Of a stretch of DNA of 35,403 nt, positions 9,393 to 24,972 are shown in pieces. The notes beneath the pieces are model-generated. The model had not been told where the DNA came from and did not search any database. It saw nothing but the letters and a program-made list of their open reading frames with translations. Source of the stretch: a virus; the IMG/VR virus record IMGVR_UViG_3300043540_000306, positions 1 through 35,403 of that record. The stretch is one strand, 5' to 3'. Every line of letters starts with the position of its first letter. The stretch's first letter is position 1. The position numbers and the translations under genes are program-made.

Positions 9393-10409
9393 ATGCCCGT
9401 CCTCGGTACCGGTGTGATGCCTTCCGGTGGTGTCGGATCCCTCGGCCAAGAGTTGCAGTACGTCACACGGCGCGCCTTCGTCAAGAAGCTCGTCGTGCAG
9501 ATCTACAACACCAGCCCGCTGGCCGCCGCACTGATCGCCAACTCGCAGCCCGCGTCGGGCGGTATCTCGTCGGTGACCATTCCGGCGCAGGGCACGCAGT
9601 TCGTGAACATGCAGTGGGTCGGCTACGACGGTTCGTTCAACCAGCCGAGCCCCCAGCCCGGCGTGACGAACCTCGAGTTCAACCTCAAGGGCGCGGTGAT
9701 CCCCGTCCCTTACCTCGGCTTCGAGGGCCTGCTGCAAGACTCGCACGAAGTCATTCCGCTGCTCGCCGCGCGGATGAACGACGCGGGCAACGTCTACTGC
9801 GACGGCATTGCAACCGCGCTGTACGGCAACACGTCGAACAACCAGCAGGTGATCGGCCTGCCGGGCGCGGTCGACGACGGCACGAACCTGGTGAACTACG
9901 GCAACCAGTCGCGCACGCTGAACCCGTGGCTGAAGGCCAAGCGCTACGCCGCCGGCGGCACCAACCCGACGCGTGCGCTCGTGATGCAGTACATCACCGG
10001 CACGTTCAAGAACTGCGGCGAATTGCCGACCTTCGGCGTCATGGGCCCGGCCACCTGGCAGACCCTGGCGAACGACTTCCTGCCCAACGAGTCCTACGTC
10101 GTCACGCCCGAAAAGGGCTTCGACGACGAGCCGTGGGGTGCGCGCAGCGCCTTCCGTGCGCTGATGGTCGCCGGCGTGCCGATCTACTGCGATCCGTACT
10201 GCCCGGAAGGCACCATGTACCTGCTCAACACGGGATACGCGGCCTTCTACATCCACGAGCGCGCCGCCTTCGCCTTCACGGGCTTCGAGAGCACGCTGAG
10301 CAACTTCCAGATCGGCTACATCGGCGCGGTGCTGTCGCTGCTCGAGTTCGTGCTCGCGAAGCCGAAATCGTGCACGGTGGTGACCGGTTTCACCTTCGTG
10401 ACCATCTGA
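9393..10409 (+). CDS. Major capsid protein
   Basis: 338 residues with AGGAG 6 nt before the ATG, a strong site that fits high expression. The N-terminus (GSLGQELQYVTRRAFVKKLV) resembles the N-arm of HK97-fold capsid proteins. Segments such as YGNTSNNQQVIGLPGAVDDG and APIP-type beta strands near VAGVPIYCDPYCPEGTMYLL match the P- and A-domain pattern of phage capsids of this class. Location after scaffold supports the call. No protease gene is seen nearby, so maturation cleavage is not implied. Confidence 0.85.
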   Translation: MPVLGTGVMPSGGVGSLGQELQYVTRRAFVKKLVVQIYNTSPLAAALIANSQPASGGISSVTIPAQGTQFVNMQWVGYDGSFNQPSPQPGVTNLEFNLKGAVIPVPYLGFEGLLQDSHEVIPLLAARMNDAGNVYCDGIATALYGNTSNNQQVIGLPGAVDDGTNLVNYGNQSRTLNPWLKAKRYAAGGTNPTRALVMQYITGTFKNCGELPTFGVMGPATWQTLANDFLPNESYVVTPEKGFDDEPWGARSAFRALMVAGVPIYCDPYCPEGTMYLLNTGYAAFYIHERAAFAFTGFESTLSNFQIGYIGAVLSLLEFVLAKPKSCTVVTGFTFVTI

Positions 10410-10425
10410 CGCACAGGAGAGAACG

Positions 10426-11685
10426 ATGTCGTTCAACAAGATCTCGGGCCTGGCCGCGGCGACCATCGCGGCGGTGCCCATCGGCCTCGGCGCCGGCGAG
10501 GCCTTCATGCTGCCGGTGGGCCAGGGCATCGTCGGGGCCTTCGGCTCCGTCGTCACGCCGCAGATCGCCGCCGGCAACCCGCTGTCGGGTCAGTACATCG
10601 TGCAGCTGGGCATGTACTCGACGCTCCAGGTCTTCGACACGGGGCTGCAGTACTGGCGCAACATCCACGTGTTGCCGTTCAATTTGGTGACGGTGTCCTC
10701 GGACGGCACGAACTACCGCATCGCGAACACGACCGGCTGCCCGGTGGGCGCGCTGATCACGAACGCGGGGTCGGGCGGCACGAACGGCTGGTATGGCTTC
10801 ATCAATGGGGTCGCCAGCACGATCGTCAACGGTGTCGTCAGCGCCGGCAATTCGGTGTTCACGATCACGCCGAGCGCGGGCGCGAGCCAGTGGAACGCGA
10901 TTGTCGGCGGTGCGGTCAACACGACCATCAGCCTTGCCGGTACGGTCTACACCAACGGCCCGTTCAGCACGGCGGCCGTCGCCGCGACGGGTAGCGGTGG
11001 CGCCAACTACACGAAGCCGCCGCTGATCATCTTCACGCCGCCACCGAACCAGGGCGCGCAGCCCTACGTGCTGCCGACCGCGATCTGCACGATCTCGGGC
11101 GGCGCCATCAACTCGGTCACGGTGCTCGAGCAGGGCGCGGGTCTGCTGGGCCTGCCGGGCATCACCGTGATTCCGCAGCCTGGCGACACCACGGGCGCTG
11201 GCGCGGTGCTCGGGTGGCTCGCGGCCAACGTCGGCCAGGTCGGTTCGGGCACGGTTCTCGCCATGTACCCGGCCGCCAGCGGCACGCCGCTGACCGCAGT
11301 GCCGACCTTCACCTACGGTGGATCGTCGAACCCCGCGCCGACGGCCACCGCGATCATGAACTTCACGATCACGGGGTTCACGAACACGACCGCGGGCGTT
11401 GGCTACGTCAACGCCGGCGGGGTGATCTGGGGCGGCATCGTCGCGGGCAGCGCGGCCAACACGAACCCGTTCATGGACAAGGCGCTGTCGATCCCGATCG
11501 CGCCGCCGATCAACGTCGCGGCCACTACCGGCGTGCCATCGTTGGCCGGCCCGTTCCAGGGGTGCAACTACCAGGCCGTGCCGTCGTACAGCGCCTTTTC
11601 GACGGGCGCCGCGCCATCGACGGCCGCTGTGCAGCCGCCGACCGTGGGCGGGGCCAACGACGTCATCACGCTGATGTCCATCTGA
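10426..11685 (+). CDS. Virion structural protein with Gly/Tyr beta-repeat module
   Basis: 419 residues, AGGAG 6 nt before ATG. The N-terminal 90 residues look like a small capsid-associated fold (GEAFMLPVGQGIVGAFGSVV, QYWRNIHVLPFNLVTVSSDG). The rest is beta-rich, with strands such as GSGGANYTKPPLIIFTPPP, GGAINSVTVLEQGAGLLGLP and TAGVGYVNAGGVIWGGIV. These follow a GxGYxxPP...V...GxIxxVxVxxxGxGY pattern that also occurs in the genes at 12505 and 13356. It is probably a head decoration or capsid-vertex protein. Function is inferred from context. Confidence 0.65.
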   Translation: MSFNKISGLAAATIAAVPIGLGAGEAFMLPVGQGIVGAFGSVVTPQIAAGNPLSGQYIVQLGMYSTLQVFDTGLQYWRNIHVLPFNLVTVSSDGTNYRIANTTGCPVGALITNAGSGGTNGWYGFINGVASTIVNGVVSAGNSVFTITPSAGASQWNAIVGGAVNTTISLAGTVYTNGPFSTAAVAATGSGGANYTKPPLIIFTPPPNQGAQPYVLPTAICTISGGAINSVTVLEQGAGLLGLPGITVIPQPGDTTGAGAVLGWLAANVGQVGSGTVLAMYPAASGTPLTAVPTFTYGGSSNPAPTATAIMNFTITGFTNTTAGVGYVNAGGVIWGGIVAGSAANTNPFMDKALSIPIAPPINVAATTGVPSLAGPFQGCNYQAVPSYSAFSTGAAPSTAAVQPPTVGGANDVITLMSI

Positions 11686-11694
11686 GGAACTGAC

Positions 11695-12075
11695 ATGCCG
11701 ATGTCCAGGCTCGCCGCGCTGCGCGCGTTTCTCGCACACGCCGGTGGCGTGTTCCCGCGCGCCGCTGCGGTGACCGTTCACACGACGGAAGACGTGTGGC
11801 GGGAGCTCGAGGCCGACTTGGTCGCCGCGAAGGCATGGGCCGAAGCGAAGGCTGGCGGCACGTTCGCGGTGCACCTGCCGGCGGGTTTGTGGGCGGACAT
11901 GCACGACGCCGCGCAGGACGAGCCGGAGCCCGCGCCTGCGCCTGCGCCGGAGCCCGCGACTGCGCCTGCGCCGGAGCCCGCGCCCGCGACTGCGCCTGCG
12001 CCGACGGAGGCGCCGGGCCCTACCGAAGCACCCCCCGCTCCGGCGCCGAGCGTGCCGGAACCCCCGCTCGTCTGA
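11695..12075 (+). CDS. Hypothetical protein with Ala/Pro/Glu tail, 126 aa
   Basis: GAGG 7 nt before the ATG. Residues 1-75 form a compact helical region (LAALRAFLAHAGGVFPRAAA, EDVWRELEADLVAAKAWAEA). Residues 80-126 are a low-complexity PAPAPEPATAP tract encoded by imperfect 9- to 24-bp repeats. It ends EPPLV; the next gene and the SSB end DEPLV. Likely a virion or assembly protein by location. Confidence 0.6.
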   Translation: MPMSRLAALRAFLAHAGGVFPRAAAVTVHTTEDVWRELEADLVAAKAWAEAKAGGTFAVHLPAGLWADMHDAAQDEPEPAPAPAPEPATAPAPEPAPATAPAPTEAPGPTEAPPAPAPSVPEPPLV

Positions 12076-12099
12076 GCCACCGTCTCGCAGAGTTGACCT

Positions 12100-12492
12100 A
12101 TGCGCGAAATCTTCGTCACGAACAGAAACGACTTCCACCACTCGGACCGTTTTAACGGTGTCGACTTCGAGTTCCCTCCGAAGGAGCGCGTAGCGATCCC
12201 GGTGGAGGCCGCGGTACACATGTTCGGGTTCAACATGCCCGACAAGACCGAGGTGTTGACGCGCCTGGGGTGGGCCACGAAGTACGACCCCCGCGCGCGC
12301 ACGTTCGTCGACGACGCTGACGGTGTGAAGCGGCTCGCTAACTTCGTGTTCACGAAGGCGGTGATGATCGAAGCGCCGATCGACGCACCCGACCCCGAGC
12401 CGATGGGCCTGGCGGACGCGCCCGCACCACCCCCGGTGAAGGCGAAGCGGCTCGACTATCTGGCAGTGGGCAACGACGAGCCGCTCGTCTGA
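12100..12492 (+). CDS. Hypothetical virion-region protein, 130 aa
   Basis: The product begins MREIFVTNRNDFHHSDRFNG and continues with FEFPPKERVAIPVEAAVHMF and VLTRLGWATKYDPRARTFVD. It is a mixed alpha/beta protein with a Pro-rich, acidic tail ending NDEPLV. The start is preceded by CAGAGTTGACCT, identical to the leader of the scaffold gene. Its place between decoration and adaptor genes suggests a head-completion role, but I recognise no family. Confidence 0.65.
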   Translation: MREIFVTNRNDFHHSDRFNGVDFEFPPKERVAIPVEAAVHMFGFNMPDKTEVLTRLGWATKYDPRARTFVDDADGVKRLANFVFTKAVMIEAPIDAPDPEPMGLADAPAPPPVKAKRLDYLAVGNDEPLV

Positions 12493-12504
12493 TGCGGTTG
12501 AGCC

Positions 12505-13353
12505 GTGACGACGCTCAACCAGTACGAGGTCCAGGTCGCCGATCTTCTCCACGATCCGAACCAGCAGCTGTGGAGCCTGTCGCAGCTTGACCTCTACATC
12601 AACGAGGCCCGGCGGCAGGTGGTCATGGACACCGGCTGCCTTCGGTCGCTGCAGACCGCGTATCTCACCGCGGGGGTGGAGTCCTACACCTTCGGCCAGG
12701 TCACCGGTGGCGTTATTGCGACGCCGGGGACGGGGTATGTCAACCCTTCGGTCTCGTTCGCTGGTGGCGGGGGCAGTGGTGTAGCCGCTTCGTTGACGCA
12801 AAGTGGTGGCGCGGTCAACGCCATCAACTTCTCGGCCTTCGGCAGCGGCTACTCCACTGCCCCCGTCGCCACCGTCACCGACGGCGGCCCCGGCGTCAAT
12901 GCCGCGGTGACCGTCGGTGTGGTCAACGTGAACACCTACGACATCCTGGGCGTCAGTATCATCTGGGGCGCCGAGAGGTACGCGCTGCTGTGGCGCCCCT
13001 TCAGCGACTTCTCGGCCAAGCTGCGCGTGTGGCTGTCGACGGCCTACCAGCGCCAGCCGGCGATGTGGGCGGTCTACGGCAATACGCAGTTCTTCGTCGG
13101 GCCGCCGCCCGACCAGTCCTACCAGGTCGAACTCGACACCATCATCTTGCCGACCGCGCTGGCTGACTACCTCACCGCGGACCCGATCCCGGTGGTCATG
13201 CAGGACCCGGTCAAGTTCTACGCCGCGCACCTTGCGAAGCTGAACAACCAGGCCTACGGTGAGGCCGAGATGCTGCTCGCCGCGTACCAGCGGCGCGTGC
13301 GCGAGTGCGAGGCTGCGTACACCCGGCGGATCCCGAACCCCTATGAGGTGTGA
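12505..13353 (+). CDS. Head-tail adaptor protein with inserted beta-repeat module
   Basis: 282 residues from GTG. The N-terminal helices (YEVQVADLLHDPNQQLWSLS, YINEARRQVVMDTGCLR) and the C-terminal half (LLWRPFSDFSAKLRVWLSTA, QPAMWAVYGNTQFFVGPPPD, helical end with ARRECEA-type residues) fit the adaptor proteins that dock below the podovirus portal. Between them, residues 69-135 are a Gly-rich insert, GVIATPGTGYVNPSVSFAGG ... FSAFGSGYSTAPVATVTDGG, of the same repeat type as in the gene at 10426. The insert interrupts an otherwise continuous fold and probably projects outward. Confidence 0.75.
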   Translation: MTTLNQYEVQVADLLHDPNQQLWSLSQLDLYINEARRQVVMDTGCLRSLQTAYLTAGVESYTFGQVTGGVIATPGTGYVNPSVSFAGGGGSGVAASLTQSGGAVNAINFSAFGSGYSTAPVATVTDGGPGVNAAVTVGVVNVNTYDILGVSIIWGAERYALLWRPFSDFSAKLRVWLSTAYQRQPAMWAVYGNTQFFVGPPPDQSYQVELDTIILPTALADYLTADPIPVVMQDPVKFYAAHLAKLNNQAYGEAEMLLAAYQRRVRECEAAYTRRIPNPYEV

Positions 13354-13355
13354 CC

Positions 13356-15440
13356 GTGGCGACTCAGGGCGGTGGGGTCGGCCTTTCAGCGGATCCGAAG
13401 AGCAAGCAGCGCGGCGAGCAATCGGCTGAGTCGATCGTCCTGCGGCAGTTCGGCGGGGTCAACCTGCAGAGTCCGCGCGAGGACATCGGCGACGACGAGT
13501 TCGCGTGGCTCGAGGAGCTGATCCCGATCGCGCCGGGGAACCTGGCGCTGTCGCCGGGTCCGGGGACCGCGATCATCACCATCGCGGGCGAGAGCGGCAC
13601 GCCGAGTTACGTGCTGCCATTCAACGTGAGCGGCACCGACTACGTGCTCGCCATCTGGGCCAACTCGGGCAACGCCTGGATCGGCCCGGCCGCAACGGGC
13701 GTGGGGTGGGCCAAGATCGCCAGCGCTCTCTACACCAGCGGCAAGACGGCGGCGGCGCAGTGGAACAACCTTGGCATCGTCATCGTCGATCCCGTGGTCG
13801 GCATGCGCGACTGGAACATCACCGCGGCCAACACGCTGACCAACCTCTCTGGCCAGCTGTACGGCATCGCGGTGTCGGCGCAGAGCACGACGCAACTCAA
13901 TGGCAGTGTGCTGCCATCGCTTCGCGTCAGCGACCCGACGGGGGTGGGTGGCACCATCGGCGCGAGCCTGTCGATCGTGTCGGTCACCGTCACCGCCGGC
14001 GGGTCGGGGTACGCGGTCGGCGACGTGTTGCAGTTCACCGGGGGCACGCTCACGACGTCAAGCGCTGCCCCGGCGCTGCAGCAGAACCAGCCGACGGTCC
14101 TGAACGTCACGGGCGTCGACGGCACCGGCAAGATCACCGGCATCTCGATCGCCAGCGTCGGCTACTACCAAACCGTCCCGGGCAATCCGGTCTCTGTCAC
14201 GGGGGGGTCGGGAACGCTCGCGACGTTCACCGCGAACTGGGCCGTTGCGCACCCGTACATCATCACCGCGGGCAATGGCTACACCGCCCCGGTGGTGCAG
14301 GCATTCATCGGCGCCGTGTGGGTTGCCTACGCGATGACCATCAGCACCAGCGGCACGCTGCTGGGCACGTCCGTCGCGGTCTACGCCGGGCGGGTGTGGG
14401 TTGCGATTGGCCGCACGGTGCAGTTCACCGACGCAGGGTCTTACTCGTCGTTCGCGAACAGCGGGTCGGCCTTCACGATCGACGACGCCTATCTGCACAG
14501 TGGCATCACAGCGCTCTTTGCCGCCAACAACTATCTCTACATCTTCGGTGACGACAGCGTCGATATCCTGTCCAACGTCCAGGTGGTGAACGGCATCGCG
14601 CAATTCAGCCGGATCAACGCTTCGGCGTCGATCGGCACGACGCAGCCCCTGTCCATCTTCCCGTACCTGCGCACGATCGCTTTCGCGAATAACTCCGGGT
14701 TCTACATCATGTCCGGCGCGACGCCAGAGAAGGTCAGCGACAAGCTCGACGACCTCATGGCCGCGACGAACTTCACCGCCAAGATCTACGGTGCGCAAGT
14801 CATGGTGCGCAACATCCTTTGCGGCGCGTTCCTGATCAACTTCACCGACAGCTTCACGCAGACCCCGGCGGTGGCCCGATCGGTGCTCGTGGTGCTTCTG
14901 CGCGGCAAGTGGTGGTTCACCAGCCAGGTGACGACCAACGGGGGGCAACTCGGCGCACTGGCCGCGGTGCCGGTCGCGGGGCTGTCCTCGCTCTATGGCT
15001 GGTCGGGCCCGACGTTCTACCCGTTGCTCTCCCTGGCGGCCAACGCAAATTCGTGGCTGCTCAAGACGAAGCTGTGGGGTGCGCAGGCACCGATGCTCGA
15101 CAAGAGCGGCATTTTCGCCGGCATCGGCGCGGTGCTGGGCGGCGCAGGGACGGTGGGCTTCGACGTGTACGTGGAGACCGAGAAGAGCTCGGTGCTGAGC
15201 ACACTTGGCCAGGCTCCCGTCTTCGTCCAGTGGACCAGCAACGGTGGTGTGCCCGTGGCCTGGGTGAACAACTTCAACGCCACGGTGCTGTGGAGCCTCG
15301 CACCAGCGGGATACCAACTTTTCACCGCGCAGGCGAACAACGGCGGCGGCAAGTACATAGGACTGCGCGCTACCGGCAACAACAACACCACGCAGATCCG
15401 ACTGCTGGCGCTCGAGATCGAGCGCACGAGGCGCTGGTGA
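13356..15440 (+). CDS. Tail-hub / packaged-DNA stabilisation-like protein
   Basis: 694 residues. GTG at 13356 has GAGG 7 nt upstream; GTG at 13350 is an in-frame alternative. The protein is nearly all beta structure. Segments such as FGGVNLQSPREDIGDDEFAW, YVLPFNVSGTDYVLAIWANS, VYAGRVWVAIGRTVQFTDAG and YLYIFGDDSVDILSNVQVVN form propeller-like blades, resembling P22 gp10-type proteins that plug the portal. A GSGYAVGDVLQFTGG-type repeat (residues about 208-225) again matches the Gly/Tyr module. The assignment is moderate and by pattern and order. Confidence 0.65.
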   Translation: MATQGGGVGLSADPKSKQRGEQSAESIVLRQFGGVNLQSPREDIGDDEFAWLEELIPIAPGNLALSPGPGTAIITIAGESGTPSYVLPFNVSGTDYVLAIWANSGNAWIGPAATGVGWAKIASALYTSGKTAAAQWNNLGIVIVDPVVGMRDWNITAANTLTNLSGQLYGIAVSAQSTTQLNGSVLPSLRVSDPTGVGGTIGASLSIVSVTVTAGGSGYAVGDVLQFTGGTLTTSSAAPALQQNQPTVLNVTGVDGTGKITGISIASVGYYQTVPGNPVSVTGGSGTLATFTANWAVAHPYIITAGNGYTAPVVQAFIGAVWVAYAMTISTSGTLLGTSVAVYAGRVWVAIGRTVQFTDAGSYSSFANSGSAFTIDDAYLHSGITALFAANNYLYIFGDDSVDILSNVQVVNGIAQFSRINASASIGTTQPLSIFPYLRTIAFANNSGFYIMSGATPEKVSDKLDDLMAATNFTAKIYGAQVMVRNILCGAFLINFTDSFTQTPAVARSVLVVLLRGKWWFTSQVTTNGGQLGALAAVPVAGLSSLYGWSGPTFYPLLSLAANANSWLLKTKLWGAQAPMLDKSGIFAGIGAVLGGAGTVGFDVYVETEKSSVLSTLGQAPVFVQWTSNGGVPVAWVNNFNATVLWSLAPAGYQLFTAQANNGGGKYIGLRATGNNNTTQIRLLALEIERTRRW

Positions 15441-15838
15441 ACATCCAGATCGAGAGCCAGATGTTCTACGGGGACGAGCAGGCCTTGCGCTCGTTCTTCT
15501 TCGTGCACTACCTCGTCCACAAGCAGGTCGACAGCGTCATCGCGTCGCGCAGCCTGGGGAGCAACGCCAACGCGACGATCGACAGCAGTCGCGCGCTCGA
15601 CGGGCTCGTGCAAGCGATGCTCAAGCCGCCGCAGCGCGACGAGGGCGCGGCGCGCGCGCTTTCCGACTGGCTGCAGCTGCACGCCGACCTGCACCAGGCC
15701 GAGTACGCTGCGCTGCAACTCGGGCTTGCGCCCGACCTCGGCGTCGTGCGCTTCGAGGACGAGAGCGCGTTCTATGACTGGATGTTCGCGCACGCCGCCG
15801 TGCACGACACACTCGGCGCCGCCACGGGAATCCTGTGA
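15437..15838 (+). CDS. Hypothetical phage protein, 133 aa
   Basis: GTG overlaps the previous stop (GTGA). The sequence begins VNIQIESQMFYGDEQALRSF, then FFVHYLVHKQVDSVIASRSL, and is helical throughout, with two histidine-containing helices (LHADLHQAEYAAL, FAHAAVHDTL). It is coupled at its end to the GNAT gene by another GTGA overlap. No family is recognised. The tight coupling suggests a shared task with the acetyltransferase. Confidence 0.6.
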   Translation: MNIQIESQMFYGDEQALRSFFFVHYLVHKQVDSVIASRSLGSNANATIDSSRALDGLVQAMLKPPQRDEGAARALSDWLQLHADLHQAEYAALQLGLAPDLGVVRFEDESAFYDWMFAHAAVHDTLGAATGIL

Positions 15839-16272
15839 TCGAAGACTACGACGAGAAGCGGCACGCCACCGGCGTGCTGAGGTTGCTGGACCAGATGTGC
15901 GCCGAGGCGGCGGCCGAGTACTGGGAGCGCGAGCACGGGCTGATCCTCCACTTCCTCCGGCAGGAGTACGTCTTGTGCGCCGTCGCCAGCGCCGGGGGGC
16001 AGCTCGTCGGGCTGATAATCGCAGAGATCGGAGAGCCATTTTTCAGCCGAAAAGTTGGCGTCTACGAGCAGATCCTGTATGTTGAGCCGGCGCATCGGGG
16101 CGGCATCCATGCCGCCCGGCTGATCGCGCGGTGCGAGCGCTGGGCCCGCGCTCGCGGCGCGCAGGAGATGCACCTGTCACAGCGCACGGGCATCGAGGCG
16201 GACCGCACGCGCGACCTCTTCGCGCGGCTGGGGTTCGAGGTAGTCGGGTTCAACGCACGAAAGGTCCTGTGA
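15835..16272 (+). CDS. GNAT-family N-acetyltransferase
   Basis: 145 residues. Motif A is at about 80-100 (ILYVEPAHRGGIHAARLIAR), with RGGIHA in place of the usual R/QxxGxG/A acetyl-CoA loop. Strand beta4 (LVGLIIAEIG) precedes it, and the C-terminal ARLGFEVVGFNARKVL matches the usual end. The reaction is transfer of acetyl from acetyl-CoA to an amine. The substrate is unknown. GNAT genes among podovirus structural genes are not rare and may modify virion or host proteins. The start GTG overlaps the previous stop; the stop overlaps the next ATG. Confidence 0.85.
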   Translation: MIEDYDEKRHATGVLRLLDQMCAEAAAEYWEREHGLILHFLRQEYVLCAVASAGGQLVGLIIAEIGEPFFSRKVGVYEQILYVEPAHRGGIHAARLIARCERWARARGAQEMHLSQRTGIEADRTRDLFARLGFEVVGFNARKVL

Positions 16273-19004: not shown

Positions 19005-21359
19005 ATGCCCCAGGTCAAGATGCCCGACGGCACGGTGGTCGAGATGCCCGACAACCCCGACCCGGCACTGGTCGCGCGGCTGCAGCGTTTCCAGGCAGCG
19101 CAGGGCGCCGGCGGCGCGCCGCCGTCGCCCCGGGGGGGTGGGGGGGGGGGGGGTGGTGGGGGTGGTGGGGGTGGTGGTGGTGGTGGTGGTGGTGACGTGC
19201 TCGGCTTCATTTCTGGCAACATCGGAAAAGGAGAGGCGGGGCTGGCCGGCATTCCGGTGGACACCGCGCTCAACGTCGCGGACCTGGTCAAGGCCGCTTA
19301 CGGTGTTGCCAAGCACGAGATCACCGGCGGCGCACCGCCGGAGCTGACGGATCGAAGCGGGGTCGTCGGCTCGAGCGAGTGGATCATCAAGCAGGCGCAG
19401 CGCGCCGGCCTGATCACGCCGGCGGCCGAGCCGACGACGGCCGGCGGGCGGGTCGCCGCCGGCGCGCTGCAGGCGGTGCCATCGATCATGGGCGGCGGCG
19501 AGGCTTCCGTGGGGTCGCTGGCACGCCAGGCGGGTGCGGCTGCGGTGAGCGGAGGTCTGCCGCAGATCATCGAGCAGGCCGGCGGCTCGCCGAGTGAGCA
19601 GGTGCTCGGCAGCATGCTGCCCGGCATGGCCCACCAGGCGATGCCAGTCGGGAAGGAAGCACTGCGGCGCAAGATCGTCGGCGGCGCCGACGTGCGCGCC
19701 AACGTCGAGGAAGCACGCCGGGCGGGCATGCCCCGGCCGGACCCCGCTGCGGTGACCGGCAGCCGCATGCTGGGTGGCGCCGAGGGGACGCTGGCCAGGC
19801 TGCCGGGGGCGGGTAGCGTCATGGACGCGGCGGCCGAGCAGCGCGCCGCCGGCGTGCAGCGGCGCATCGGCGAGATCGCGCGCGAGATGTCCCCCGCCGG
19901 GCCGGTGAGCGCCGAGCGTGCGGGGCGCGCCATCACGCAGGGCGTCGAGGGTGCCGTCACGAACTTCCGCGCGCGGCAAGACCAGCTATACAAGAAGGTC
20001 GACGCGATGGTCGACCCGGCGTCGCCGATCGCGCTGAACAACTTCCGCGCCAAGATCCGCGAGTTCGCCAACCCGACCCCCGGCGCCGAGGCCACGAGTC
20101 GCTCGCTGGTCCCCGAGAAAGTGCGCGCGCTCTTCGAGGGCATTGAGACGGACCTCGCCGGTGTGCCGCCGCGACCGAAAGTCGACACGAGCGCGCCGGT
20201 ACCGGCCGAGAGCGAGCCGATGCCGAAGCCGCCGCGCAGTGACCGCGCGGTGGAAGTTGCGCGGTACCAGCAGGAGATGCGCGCCAGGCAGCGCAAGATC
20301 GACCAGCAACGCGCCGAGCGCCAGAAAGCGGCCGAGGCCGCGGCGGCACCCGGCGAGCGCTCGCTCGACGTCACACGCCGGCGCGATGGCCACCTCGAGA
20401 CCGTCGGCCGCAAGATCGCGGTGCAGGACATCGCACAGGAGGGCCGCGCGGCCAAGGACTCGTTGCCCTACCAGACCGTTGCGGGCATCCGCTCGCAGCT
20501 GGGCCGGTTGCTCGAGGACGGCATGCTCATGACCGACGCGCCGAAGTCGATGTACAAGGCGCTGTACCGCGCTCTGAGCGACGACGTGCGCGCCGCGCTG
20601 CCGCCGGACGCGAAGCAGGCATGGGAGCGGGCCTCGAGGTACACGCGCGCCGGACACGACCGCATCGAGACGGTCTACCAGCCGCTCGTCGACAAGCAGA
20701 CCCCGGAGAAGGCGCTGCGCGCGGCGCTGTCGGGAACGCGCGAGGGCGCGAGCGCCTTGCGCAAGATCATGGGCGCGCTGACGCCCGACCAGCGCAACGC
20801 GGTGGCGTCGCACGTCATCGAGAACATGGGCCGCGCGTCGCCGAGCCAACAGACCGCGGAGGGCAATCGGTTCAGCATCGAGACCTTCCTCACGAACTAC
20901 ACCAAGCTCGATCCGGCGGCGCAGCGCGCGCTGCTGCCGCCGAGTGCGCGCAAAGACCTGGAGACGGTAGCGAGCGCTGTGTCGCGGCTGCGCGAGGCCG
21001 GGCGGGGCACCTACAACCCGTCGGGCACCGCGCGCGCGGTGACGCACGCGGGCTTCGCCGGCGCGGGGGTCACAGGGGTGCTCATTCCGCTGATGTCGGG
21101 GCACCTCGGCACCGCCGCGGCCACGGGCGGCGGCCTGGCGGCCGAGCTCGCGCTCAATCACACGGTGGCCCGGGCCATGACCAGCCCGGAGTTCATCCAC
21201 TGGCTCGCCGAGGGCACGAAGGTGCCCCAGACCGATCGCGCGCGCTATGCCGCGCGCCTTGCGATCATCGCGAAGAACACCCGCGACCCGGAGACCGCGC
21301 AGGCGCTGCACGACATCAGCGGCGTGGTTGCCGGTCCCGACACAGCAGGAGGACAATGA
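19005..21359 (+). CDS. Putative large DNA-ejection protein (third of three) with poly-Gly tract
   Basis: 784 residues. The N-terminus MPQVKMPDGTVVEMPDNPDP is a short beta segment seen at the start of several phage internal proteins. Residues 44-63 are an unbroken run of about 20 glycines encoded by a G/T-only tract containing 14 consecutive Gs. Beyond this come Gly/Ala-rich helices (GGRVAAGALQAVPSIMGGGE), a long charged helix (YQQEMRARQRKIDQQRAERQ, residues about 420-450) and a membrane-active-looking GFAGAGVTGVLIPLMSGHLG near 700. No lysozyme motif is evident. A one-base slip in the G run would truncate the protein. Confidence 0.6.
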   Translation: MPQVKMPDGTVVEMPDNPDPALVARLQRFQAAQGAGGAPPSPRGGGGGGGGGGGGGGGGGGGGDVLGFISGNIGKGEAGLAGIPVDTALNVADLVKAAYGVAKHEITGGAPPELTDRSGVVGSSEWIIKQAQRAGLITPAAEPTTAGGRVAAGALQAVPSIMGGGEASVGSLARQAGAAAVSGGLPQIIEQAGGSPSEQVLGSMLPGMAHQAMPVGKEALRRKIVGGADVRANVEEARRAGMPRPDPAAVTGSRMLGGAEGTLARLPGAGSVMDAAAEQRAAGVQRRIGEIAREMSPAGPVSAERAGRAITQGVEGAVTNFRARQDQLYKKVDAMVDPASPIALNNFRAKIREFANPTPGAEATSRSLVPEKVRALFEGIETDLAGVPPRPKVDTSAPVPAESEPMPKPPRSDRAVEVARYQQEMRARQRKIDQQRAERQKAAEAAAAPGERSLDVTRRRDGHLETVGRKIAVQDIAQEGRAAKDSLPYQTVAGIRSQLGRLLEDGMLMTDAPKSMYKALYRALSDDVRAALPPDAKQAWERASRYTRAGHDRIETVYQPLVDKQTPEKALRAALSGTREGASALRKIMGALTPDQRNAVASHVIENMGRASPSQQTAEGNRFSIETFLTNYTKLDPAAQRALLPPSARKDLETVASAVSRLREAGRGTYNPSGTARAVTHAGFAGAGVTGVLIPLMSGHLGTAAATGGGLAAELALNHTVARAMTSPEFIHWLAEGTKVPQTDRARYAARLAIIAKNTRDPETAQALHDISGVVAGPDTAGGQ
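19132..19193 (+). repeat. G/T-only low-complexity tract with G14 run
   Basis: From 19132 to 19193 the + strand holds only G and T: seven Gs, T, then fourteen Gs (19140-19153), then GGT-type triplets. It encodes about 20 glycines. The tract has several runs of three or more Gs, so it can form G-quadruplex structure, and it is prone to replication slippage and sequencing error. Confidence 0.85.
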
Positions 21360-23172: not shown

Positions 23173-24972
23173 ATGCTCAACCTGCAACGCACGTTCGGCT
23201 CGCTCACCGGGCCCATTCCGACGAGCTATCTTGACGACAACTTCACCGCGCTGGCGAAGACTGTCGCCAACACGATCGCCGAACTGCGCACGCAGGTGAA
23301 GACCGGCGCGGGCGTGTGCTTCGTGCTCGGCTACTACGCTGCGGGGGACAGCGGCGGCGGCGCCTACCGGTACGATGCCAGCGACACCACCAGCTTAGAC
23401 AATGGCGGCACGATCATCGTCGCCGCGGACGGCGGCCGGTGGAAACTCGTCGTGTTGGAGTCGGTGACCATCGCGCAATTCGGCGCCGTGGGCGACTACA
23501 ACGGCACGACGGGCACCGACAACCTGGCGGCAATCCAGGCTGCGATCAACTGGGTCGCGTCCCTGGCAGTCAGCGGCGCCACAACCGGTGGGTTCCTGGA
23601 CATCCCGGAAGGCCGTTTCTACGTCAGTGGTGCGCTCACCGCCGCCGCTTTCGTGACGCTGCGGGGCCAGGGCAAGAAGGCCAGCCAGATCATCTCGAAC
23701 AGCGCGACCGACGCGATCAAGATGACCTCGCCGATCAATTCGTCGACGGCAGTCCACAACGGCCTGCGCGATCTCGGCATCATCATGAAGAACGGCGCCG
23801 CTACGGGCGGTTGCTATACCGATGTCGGTGGCACTTACGTCAACATCTCGGGGTGCTATTTCAGTGGCGGCAATTACGGGGTGATCTTCGACCAGACGGA
23901 AATAGCCACCATAGAAAAGAGCATCATCGAGAACCCAGTCACTGGTGGCGTGTGGCTTGTCAATGGTGCAGATCACACTCCTGGCGCCAACACCGGGTAC
24001 ACGAACAGAATAACGATCACTTGCAATCAGTTTAATGGTGGCGCTGCGGGATACGCCATCGTCGATGACGGTGGGGAAGTGCACTCGGTAGGTAATAACA
24101 ATTTCAACGGCTTCGTGCAGCACTACCGGGGCGCGAATGTCCAGACAGCCGACATCTACGATAACGAGATGGAAGCGGCGACCGGGCCGAACATGACATT
24201 CCAGGCAACGACGCTGGCCGGGACGTCGGTGGGGGTGGGGTCGGCGCTCACCATTCGGGGAAATGCTGTCATCCCCACTGCGGCGCAAAACGCTCTGCGA
24301 TTCATCCTGTGTGGGAGCGCGTTGCTCCTCGGCAATTCTTGGTCGTCGGCATTGAGCGCCGCGCCGGGTGTCGTCGTCACCAGCCTGGTGTTCCTGACGG
24401 CTATCGGGAATCGTAACTACTCCGGCGCGGTCTCGGGTTCTGCGACATACCAATACGTCAACGATCACTATTCCGGTAATGGGAGCGTCGCTCTCAACAC
24501 CGGGTTGACGCTGGGCAATGCGGCCCCCGCCAGCACCGGCGTGGTGACTAATAAAGTCGTCAATAACTACGAAGAAGGCACTTTCACTCCTGCGTTCAGC
24601 GCAACAGGGTGCACTTTCAGCTACGCGGCGCAAATAGGTGTCTACACACGCATAGGCAATTTTGTATTCTTCAACCTGCGCATCGTCCTCAATGGCACCG
24701 GCAATACCTTGGGGAGCAACACGCTGACGATCACCGGGTTGCCGTATGTCGGCGCAGCCGGGGCGACGTACCTCCTCGAGGCTGCGACGTGGGAGAACAT
24801 AGCCACCGCGCTCATCGGCTTGAGTGCCCAGATCTCCCCGTCGTCGGCCGCCCTTAGCCTGTTCAAGATGACCGCCGCGACGACGAGCGCGGGAGGGGCG
24901 CAGATGCTCGCGACTGACCTTAGCGCCACCGCGGGGTCGGTAATCCAGGTGGCAGGCAGCTACCAAGTCTGA
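23173..24972 (+). CDS. Tailspike with pectate-lyase-like beta-helix
   Basis: 599 residues. The N-terminal 90 residues are a particle-binding domain (YLDDNFTALAKTVANTIAEL, GYYAAGDSGGGAYRYDASD). VTIAQFGAVGDYNGTTGTDN at about 98-117 is the start signature of right-handed beta-helix (Pectate_lyase_3) tailspikes. The helix runs to about 420 with strands such as VNISGCYFSGGNYGVIFDQT. A C-terminal domain, YEEGTFTPAFSATGCTFSYA then GVYTRIGNFVFFNLRI, is common at the end of phage tailspikes and may trimerise. It should bind and perhaps cleave host surface polysaccharide. Codons in the middle are visibly more AT-rich than in neighbours. Confidence 0.85.
   Translation: MLNLQRTFGSLTGPIPTSYLDDNFTALAKTVANTIAELRTQVKTGAGVCFVLGYYAAGDSGGGAYRYDASDTTSLDNGGTIIVAADGGRWKLVVLESVTIAQFGAVGDYNGTTGTDNLAAIQAAINWVASLAVSGATTGGFLDIPEGRFYVSGALTAAAFVTLRGQGKKASQIISNSATDAIKMTSPINSSTAVHNGLRDLGIIMKNGAATGGCYTDVGGTYVNISGCYFSGGNYGVIFDQTEIATIEKSIIENPVTGGVWLVNGADHTPGANTGYTNRITITCNQFNGGAAGYAIVDDGGEVHSVGNNNFNGFVQHYRGANVQTADIYDNEMEAATGPNMTFQATTLAGTSVGVGSALTIRGNAVIPTAAQNALRFILCGSALLLGNSWSSALSAAPGVVVTSLVFLTAIGNRNYSGAVSGSATYQYVNDHYSGNGSVALNTGLTLGNAAPASTGVVTNKVVNNYEEGTFTPAFSATGCTFSYAAQIGVYTRIGNFVFFNLRIVLNGTGNTLGSNTLTITGLPYVGAAGATYLLEAATWENIATALIGLSAQISPSSAALSLFKMTAATTSAGGAQMLATDLSATAGSVIQVAGSYQV

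Follow-up and report, generated by a model that had tools for sequence, protein, structure and literature searches.

A Gly/Tyr-rich beta module in the head-tail adaptor, the hub and the post-capsid protein of a podovirus-type genome

Results

Genes and modules at the locus

We analysed the IMG/VR virus record IMGVR_UViG_3300043540_000306, whose complete 35,403 bases are called the window here, for a glycine- and tyrosine-rich (Gly/Tyr) module that recurs in neighbouring structural proteins. The + strand carries, in this order, the genes for the major capsid protein, a 419-amino acid protein, two small proteins, the head-tail adaptor and the hub. The major capsid protein (9393..10409) was identified with NCBIfam capsid_maj_Podo (E-value 1.2e-32) and as PHROG major head protein, and contains no module. 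A preliminary description of this DNA, made from the sequence alone, had taken the protein encoded at 10426..11685 for a capsid protein; this is in fact the next gene, and its 419-amino acid product, hereafter the 10426 protein, was assigned to the slot after the capsid gene by comparing that slot over relatives. Its Gly/Tyr module covers residues 187-261 (10984..11208) and was located by matches to hub-only and adaptor-only profiles. The head-tail adaptor, of the SU10/GP4/T7 type, consists of 282 amino acids (12505..13353), as identified by Pfam SU10_adaptor and its predicted fold, and carries a six-stranded module at residues 64-140 (12694..12924), delimited by profiles, comparison with relatives and the structure model. 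The open reading frame (ORF) of the hub, or nozzle protein, starts at 13350, position 13356 being a later in-frame GTG, and encodes a protein of 696 amino acids (13350..15440) whose structure model matches beta-propeller proteins. An alignment of hubs delineated an inserted segment at approximately residues 156-340 (13815..14369), modelled as a low-confidence linker followed by strands, and a divergent Gly/Tyr module lies at approximately residues 207-298 (13968..14243), as indicated by its position in orthologs, hhalign and a weak similarity to Gp18_dom_I. A search for modules on both window strands gave no other convincing copy. The relatives used for comparison are IMG/VR loci from two scans, each of which gave more than 600 matching stretches and contributed its best 80 loci, so that proportions among them are not natural frequencies.

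One module type in three proteins

The first clue was that the window adaptor module matched the hub of relative L005 (E-value 3e-7) and the 10426 protein that of relative L006 (E-value 7e-5). A profile of 26 adaptor modules was then compared with 3474 distinct other ORFs, all read on the forward strand of their loci and excluding the 26 module-bearing adaptors themselves. This gave 125 matches at E<0.01, 124 of them at E<0.001, and at E<0.01 none among 3474 shuffled and none among 3474 reversed ORFs. Sorted by protein (domain E<0.01), the profile recognized 22 of the 26 relatives of the 10426 protein and 95 of the 112 hubs, the label 'hub' being assigned here by a module-containing profile, so that this group could include non-hub proteins that carry a module. 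None of the 109 capsid proteins and none of the 87 other adaptors matched at this threshold, and the position and length of the matching ORFs among the remainder (7/3140) suggest truncated hubs or adaptors. Conversely, the window adaptor was matched by a profile of hub modules from other genomes, containing no adaptor member, with an E-value of 4.9e-9 that none of 1000 shuffles reached. Residues ~187-261 of the 10426 protein were matched by the hub-only profile (E-value 5.2e-6; 0/1000 shuffles as high) and by the adaptor-only profile (E-value 5.6e-5), and a second, weaker stretch at residues 265-309 gave an E-value of 0.0085 when the protein was searched alone.

A profile-profile comparison of the three segments, as proposed in the preliminary description, related two of the three pairs: with clade-only profiles, hhalign gave 96% for adaptor and 10426 protein and 87% for adaptor and hub (the third pair is weighed in the Discussion). 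Pairings outside the modules gave at most 17%, the two adaptor cores against each other excepted. The structure models of adaptor and hub display the same order of strands and GxGY turns, and the columns common to the adaptor, hub and 10426 groups are mostly Gly, Tyr, Pro and Ala, for example G75, Y78, G113, P120 and A133. In a single genome, that of relative L169, profile matches were found in all three proteins: the adaptor (8.6e-13), the relative of the 10426 protein (2.8e-12) and the hub (3.3e-8). For the window's own hub copy, the clear modules of orthologous hubs occupy the same alignment position, and the hub of relative L099 bridges both hub module types with direct profile matches. 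A pooled profile also matched this copy (E-value 1.5e-7), although it contains close relatives and is not independent. BLASTP among the three window proteins gave a best E-value of 0.19, and a DNA repeat search found only short, weak families across the genes, so recent duplication at the DNA level is not indicated. Judged by these profile comparisons, the three window proteins share one module, the adaptor and the 10426 protein directly and the hub indirectly. The earlier claim of a common module is thereby borne out, and that of a motif in all three proteins holds for the adaptor and the 10426 protein through independent profiles, whereas the window's hub copy is degenerate and linked only through indirect evidence.

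The adaptor and its insertion site

The adaptor scored 39.1 bits against Pfam SU10_adaptor, compared to a cut-off of 27 bits, and is thus a member of this family, which was also matched by 28 of 35 adaptor relatives (E-value up to 1). Its model, with a mean predicted local distance difference test (pLDDT) score of 89.7, places helices at residues 4-14, 25-43, 234-247 and 251-267 around a beta region, and matches the solved adaptors of GP4 (Z 15.9), cyanophage A4 (Z 14.4), SU10 (Z 12.6) and T7 (Z 9.7). The predicted fold thus shows the four-helix bundle and beta (fibre-dock) layout of the SU10/T7 type. The insert, at approximately residues 66-139, forms six strands that are confidently predicted (block pLDDT ~92-95) within the beta region between helix 2 and helix 3. 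That the module interrupts the adaptor fold had been proposed before, with the nearby limits 69-135, and agrees both with the model and with the existence of natural adaptors lacking the insert. Published descriptions of the T7 and SU10 adaptors, in the passages available, mention a helix bundle, a beta fibre-dock domain and an embracing segment, the dock loops of SU10 protruding radially, so the insert would be situated within or adjoining the fibre dock.

Among 114 distinct full-length adaptors, five partial ones having been left out, 19 have no insert (211-215 amino acids), 26 carry the Gly/Tyr module and 69 carry a tryptophan- and proline-rich (W/P-rich) insert in the same region; length and pattern rules assigned the first two classes and 64 of the W/P class, to which five more were added by eye. 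The insert-free adaptor of L005 (MW202825), for example, has 214 amino acids and lacks the equivalent of window residues ~54-131. The W/P-rich insert, of ~70-90 amino acids and present in relatives such as L006, L109 and L123, is unrelated to the Gly/Tyr module. In seven proteins no Pfam family matched over this insert below an E-value of 0.1, and the profiles phrog_6005 and phrog_19864 each matched over it in 4 of 8. This region of the adaptor is therefore a socket that is left empty or filled with an unrelated domain in relatives, and the insertion sites look like sockets for exchangeable parts.

The hub

The hub model (mean pLDDT 77.2) matches the hubs of Pa223 (Z 25.6), SU10 (Z 23.5), P22 (Z 23.1) and T7 (Z 19.4), which by predicted fold makes it a member of the P22 gp10 / T7 gp12 / SU10 gp17 beta-propeller family. 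At the sequence level, no match to the hub was found in Pfam or among solved structures, and a weak match to a galactose-binding family (residues 619-652, E-value 0.048) falls outside the module. In the model, the inserted segment comes after two sets of strands that follow the N-terminal part. Modules were counted in 100 distinct full-length hubs with a profile trained on hub modules, which detected one module in 16, two in 55, three in 9, four in 6, five in 1 and none in 13. The median lengths were 576, 664 and 742 amino acids for hubs with one, two and three modules, respectively, so the number of modules varies by whole units. The length steps amount to ~80-90 amino acids per module, as for instance in the hubs of L166 (576 amino acids), L005 (662) and L075 (738).

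The protein after the capsid gene

In 82 relatives, the slot of the 10426 protein is filled by a short protein of 90-140 amino acids. A profile of these short proteins matched the N-terminus of one long member, that of relative L054, with an E-value of 3.2e-6, and hhalign of the short proteins against the 10426 family gave 63% for the subgroup of L054 and 23% for that of the window. Possibly, then, the 10426 protein is a long form of a short cement-like post-capsid protein of ~106-126 amino acids to which modules were added. A tblastn search with the 10426 protein in phages gave no match.

Fold type and nearest known families

Adaptor residues 67-138 could be aligned with residues 99-185 of the T4 sheath protein gp18 (3foa_C) with Z 6.2 and a root-mean-square deviation of 2.9 over 72 residues, at 18% identity. 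The structural matches confined to the insert comprised gp18 domain I (3foa_C, 3fo8, 3j2m) and sheath chains of a Klebsiella phage. The corresponding Pfam family, Gp18_dom_I (PF22639), was also the most frequent family among hubs, matching 8 of 35 (E-value up to 1, best 5.3e-5); in a set of ten hubs it was listed for four, at the module positions and under the curated cut-off. Residues 210-269 of the window hub showed a weak similarity to it (E-value 0.14), and no match was found in 35 adaptors or 23 relatives of the 10426 protein. The best score shown, 22.3 bits, remains under the curated cut-off of 27 bits. The module thus resembles gp18 domain I and is not filed under Gp18_dom_I.

Several PHROG families contain stretches of the Gly/Tyr type, among them 460, 701, 19630, 4406, 708 and 5342. 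The profiles concerned are named head closure Hc2, baseplate wedge, tail fibre, head decoration or virion structural protein, and the Hc2 profile, phrog_460, matched 25 of 35 adaptors and 22 of 35 hubs. The hub module also matched proteins of Enterobacter, Erwinia, Cronobacter and Klebsiella phages, whose annotations read head decoration, head outer capsid, capsid and scaffold, SGNH hydrolase or hypothetical, and tblastn matched the module to cyanophage neck proteins. Sequence searches of solved structures with alignments of the adaptor, hub and 10426 families and with a clear hub module returned nothing significant, the adaptor module giving an E-value of 0.16 with a tailspike. No immunoglobulin-like (Ig-like) Pfam family was listed for the window proteins, and among relatives there were only weak single matches.

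Origin of the modules

The preliminary description assumed that the module had been copied among adjacent genes, which the comparisons do not support. For all 26 adaptor modules, the best-scoring non-adaptor module lies in the hub of another genome, in a comparison that favours a foreign best match, as foreign modules far outnumber those of the same genome and for some genomes not all three genes are in hand. In the window, the adaptor scores 23 bits with the hub and 23 bits with the 10426 protein, compared to 63 bits with the best foreign hub module. In a tree of 115 rows and 79 columns the modules group by protein, although many forks are open and only one of the four groups, the window-type hub modules, forms a single starred clade. 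Recent copying between neighbouring genes was rejected on the strength of the best matches, and the picture is rather that the modules were acquired separately long ago from a shared pool, or were copied long ago and have since diverged.

A tree of adaptor cores, from which L054 and L086 were left out (2/114) because they could not be cut, needs four changes between the empty, module and W/P states where the minimum is two, and its starred branches force one change per class; repeated independent gains in adaptors are thus not proven. Within the long family phrog_6005, profile positions 301-399 match the Gly/Tyr module and positions ~1090-1160 the W/P insert, which suggests that the two were drawn from the same pool of virion domains.

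Other features of the window

The capsid protein has distant relatives in the Myxococcus phages Mx8 and Mx9 and in a TM7 phage. A tandem repeat in steps of 12 bases (11910-12014) encodes the Pro/Ala/Glu-rich tail of the protein at 11695-12075. Among the structural genes, an ORF at 15835-16272 looks by eye like a GNAT acetyltransferase, and a 784-amino acid ORF at 19005-21359 contains a run of ~20 glycines near residues 45-65, close to its 5' end. The N-terminal part of a 599-amino acid protein (23173-24972) matches PHROG tail fibre and EPS depolymerase families. A search for related loci with the hub returned three stretches that match the pattern, none of which was confirmed, and a tRNA search found none. 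A host search in species genomes gave five matches on contigs labelled with unrelated bacterial groups, and for this reason no host is named.

Discussion

We consider it probable that the Gly/Tyr modules are accessory, outward-facing surface barrels that provide extra contact surface, with tail fibres or spikes as the likeliest contact. A beta domain of ~75 residues and six strands would sit in surface loops of the beta region of the 12-fold adaptor and of the propeller of the hub, and in the post-capsid protein, where it would face outward and offer a surface for contacts without being needed to assemble the core machine. That it protrudes from the surface is suggested by its structural relatives. 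By analogy, we rank tail fibres or spikes first as the partner, followed by tail extension, glycan binding and plain spacing. Fibre contact comes first for three reasons: the adaptor insert is part of a beta region that serves as the fibre dock in SU10 and T7; the hub insert appears to occupy the site at which SU10 has its nozzle domains, in contact with the short fibres; and domain I of T4 gp18, the solved structure closest to the module, is a binding site for long tail fibres in their retracted state. The passages available on gp18 describe domain I as a protrusion without an apparent part in contacts between subunits, and fibre retraction as inhibited by three mutations located there. Since the module groups have the repeated GxGY and GG positions in common, these are best read as fold-determining turns rather than as a conserved binding patch. 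This background, and that cited below, was taken from passages of PMC9509320, PMC3004832, PMC9230969, PMC9698820, PMC11654681 and PMC6702177.

A number of observations weigh against surface barrels that contact fibres. Exposure is inferred from structural relatives, and the partner from analogy and position. The match to gp18 domain I is weak when taken alone, as a Z below 8 may reflect a common arrangement, and domain I is described as containing an alpha-helix (PMC3004832, in the passage available), whereas the adaptor model has no helix in residues 66-139. The structure predictions cover the adaptor and the hub, and the 10426 protein is known from its sequence. Four out of four relatives that have an empty adaptor socket, and for which both genes are in hand, keep the hub modules, so the three copies do not always occur together. 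The window's hub copy scored no better with the adaptor profile than 998 of 1000 shuffles, and with a hub profile from other clades 19 of 1000 shuffles were as high; the hhalign comparison of the 10426 protein and the hub with clade-only profiles gave 0.3%. Absence of any relation in profile searches had been named beforehand as the result that would overturn a shared module. Such a relation was found for the adaptor and the 10426 protein, and the hub copy of the window went unseen by independent profiles.

Of the alternatives, the one that survives best, although we think it rather unlikely, is that the hub modules are nozzle domains as in SU10, which straighten on infection and lengthen the tail, the copies in the adaptor and the 10426 protein being incidental. 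In the SU10 hub, as described in the passages available, four Ig-like nozzle domains lie between propeller blades 2 and 3, and domain 4 contacts the short fibre dock. The window hub belongs to the same fold family, with a good match to SU10 itself, and its modules come after the first two propeller strand sets, as one to several tandem units in hubs of this type. From strand order alone, the insert site is therefore consistent with, though not proven to be, that of the nozzle domains. However, the assignment of blades comes from the secondary-structure string alone, the likeness to SU10 is at the level of the whole hub, and the adaptor and 10426 copies are left unexplained.

It is unlikely that the modules weakly bind a host surface polysaccharide, with head, neck and tail each contributing to a large number of contacts of low affinity, although their composition would suit this: they are rich in Gly, Ser, Thr and Asn and low in charge, with 1.3% charged residues in the adaptor module compared to 18.5% in the rest of the protein. 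The module type is also present in tail-fibre and head-decoration families, and additional Ig-like sheath domains are discussed as such binders in a passage of PMC9230969, which cites Fraser et al. 2006 on Ig-like domains. However, the modules match no Pfam carbohydrate-binding family and have no conserved aromatic position besides the GxGY tyrosines, and the adaptor module is without tryptophan.

The chance is likewise low that the modules merely stiffen or seal the particle as structural spacers without a ligand. The positions conserved across groups are turn-type residues, and the adaptor insert can be missing or replaced, as spacers might be; yet the empty sockets (19/114) suggest that the adaptor works without an insert, and exchange for an unrelated domain argues against a single fixed interface.

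More speculative still, and in our opinion improbable, is a fibre holster, in which like barrels on the head-surface protein, the neck adaptor and the nozzle would hold the folded fibres until a host is met. It would be a podovirus counterpart of gp18 domain I, with the W/P insert of relatives serving as another type of holster, adapted to different fibres. Finally, convergence on a Gly-rich composition rather than homology is very improbable and largely refuted for the adaptor and the 10426 protein: the non-significant BLASTP results and the failure of the window hub copy with two independent profiles are in its favour, but the profile matches at E<0.01 are confined to real ORFs, no shuffle of either protein scored as high, and the conserved columns occur in a fixed order.

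Surface barrels with fibre contact as the likeliest function are thus the reading that we retain. Accessory beta domains on phage virions are an already known kind of thing, usually reported for individual proteins; in this genome, three adjacent structural proteins carry modules of one type. As far as our searches go, neither this occurrence nor the exchangeable socket in the adaptor is described, and word searches of the open-access literature found the repeat in no title or abstract start. The adaptor offers a natural comparison, being empty, carrying this module or carrying an unrelated domain, which makes the role of the domain testable among close relatives, and its insertion sites mark places that tolerate foreign domains. 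For annotators, carrying a Gly/Tyr repeat is by itself no ground for naming a protein neck, baseplate or sheath.

The closest known counterparts differ in their carriers. In T4 gp18, domain I (PDB 3foa, 3fo8) is an accessory barrel inserted in another domain, like the adaptor insert, but gp18 is a sheath protein, whereas the carriers here are the adaptor, hub and post-capsid protein of a podovirus. In T4-like phages the module type is carried by neck, baseplate, fibre, head-decoration and very long virion proteins, the tblastn matches being in large cyanophages. The GP4 capsid is described, in the passage available, as carrying a cement protein with an Ig-like fold, and this protein (gp1 type) is a possible analogue of the 10426 protein. 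SU10 gp17 has the propeller family in common with the hub, and both have domains inserted in the propeller, four Ig-like domains in gp17 and, in the window hub, one recognizable divergent module with a longer linker. With the fibre-dock adaptors of SU10 and T7, the window adaptor shares the helix-bundle and beta layout, and its insert falls in that beta region; at 282 amino acids it is longer than the best-matching solved adaptor chains, which have ~180-243 residues.

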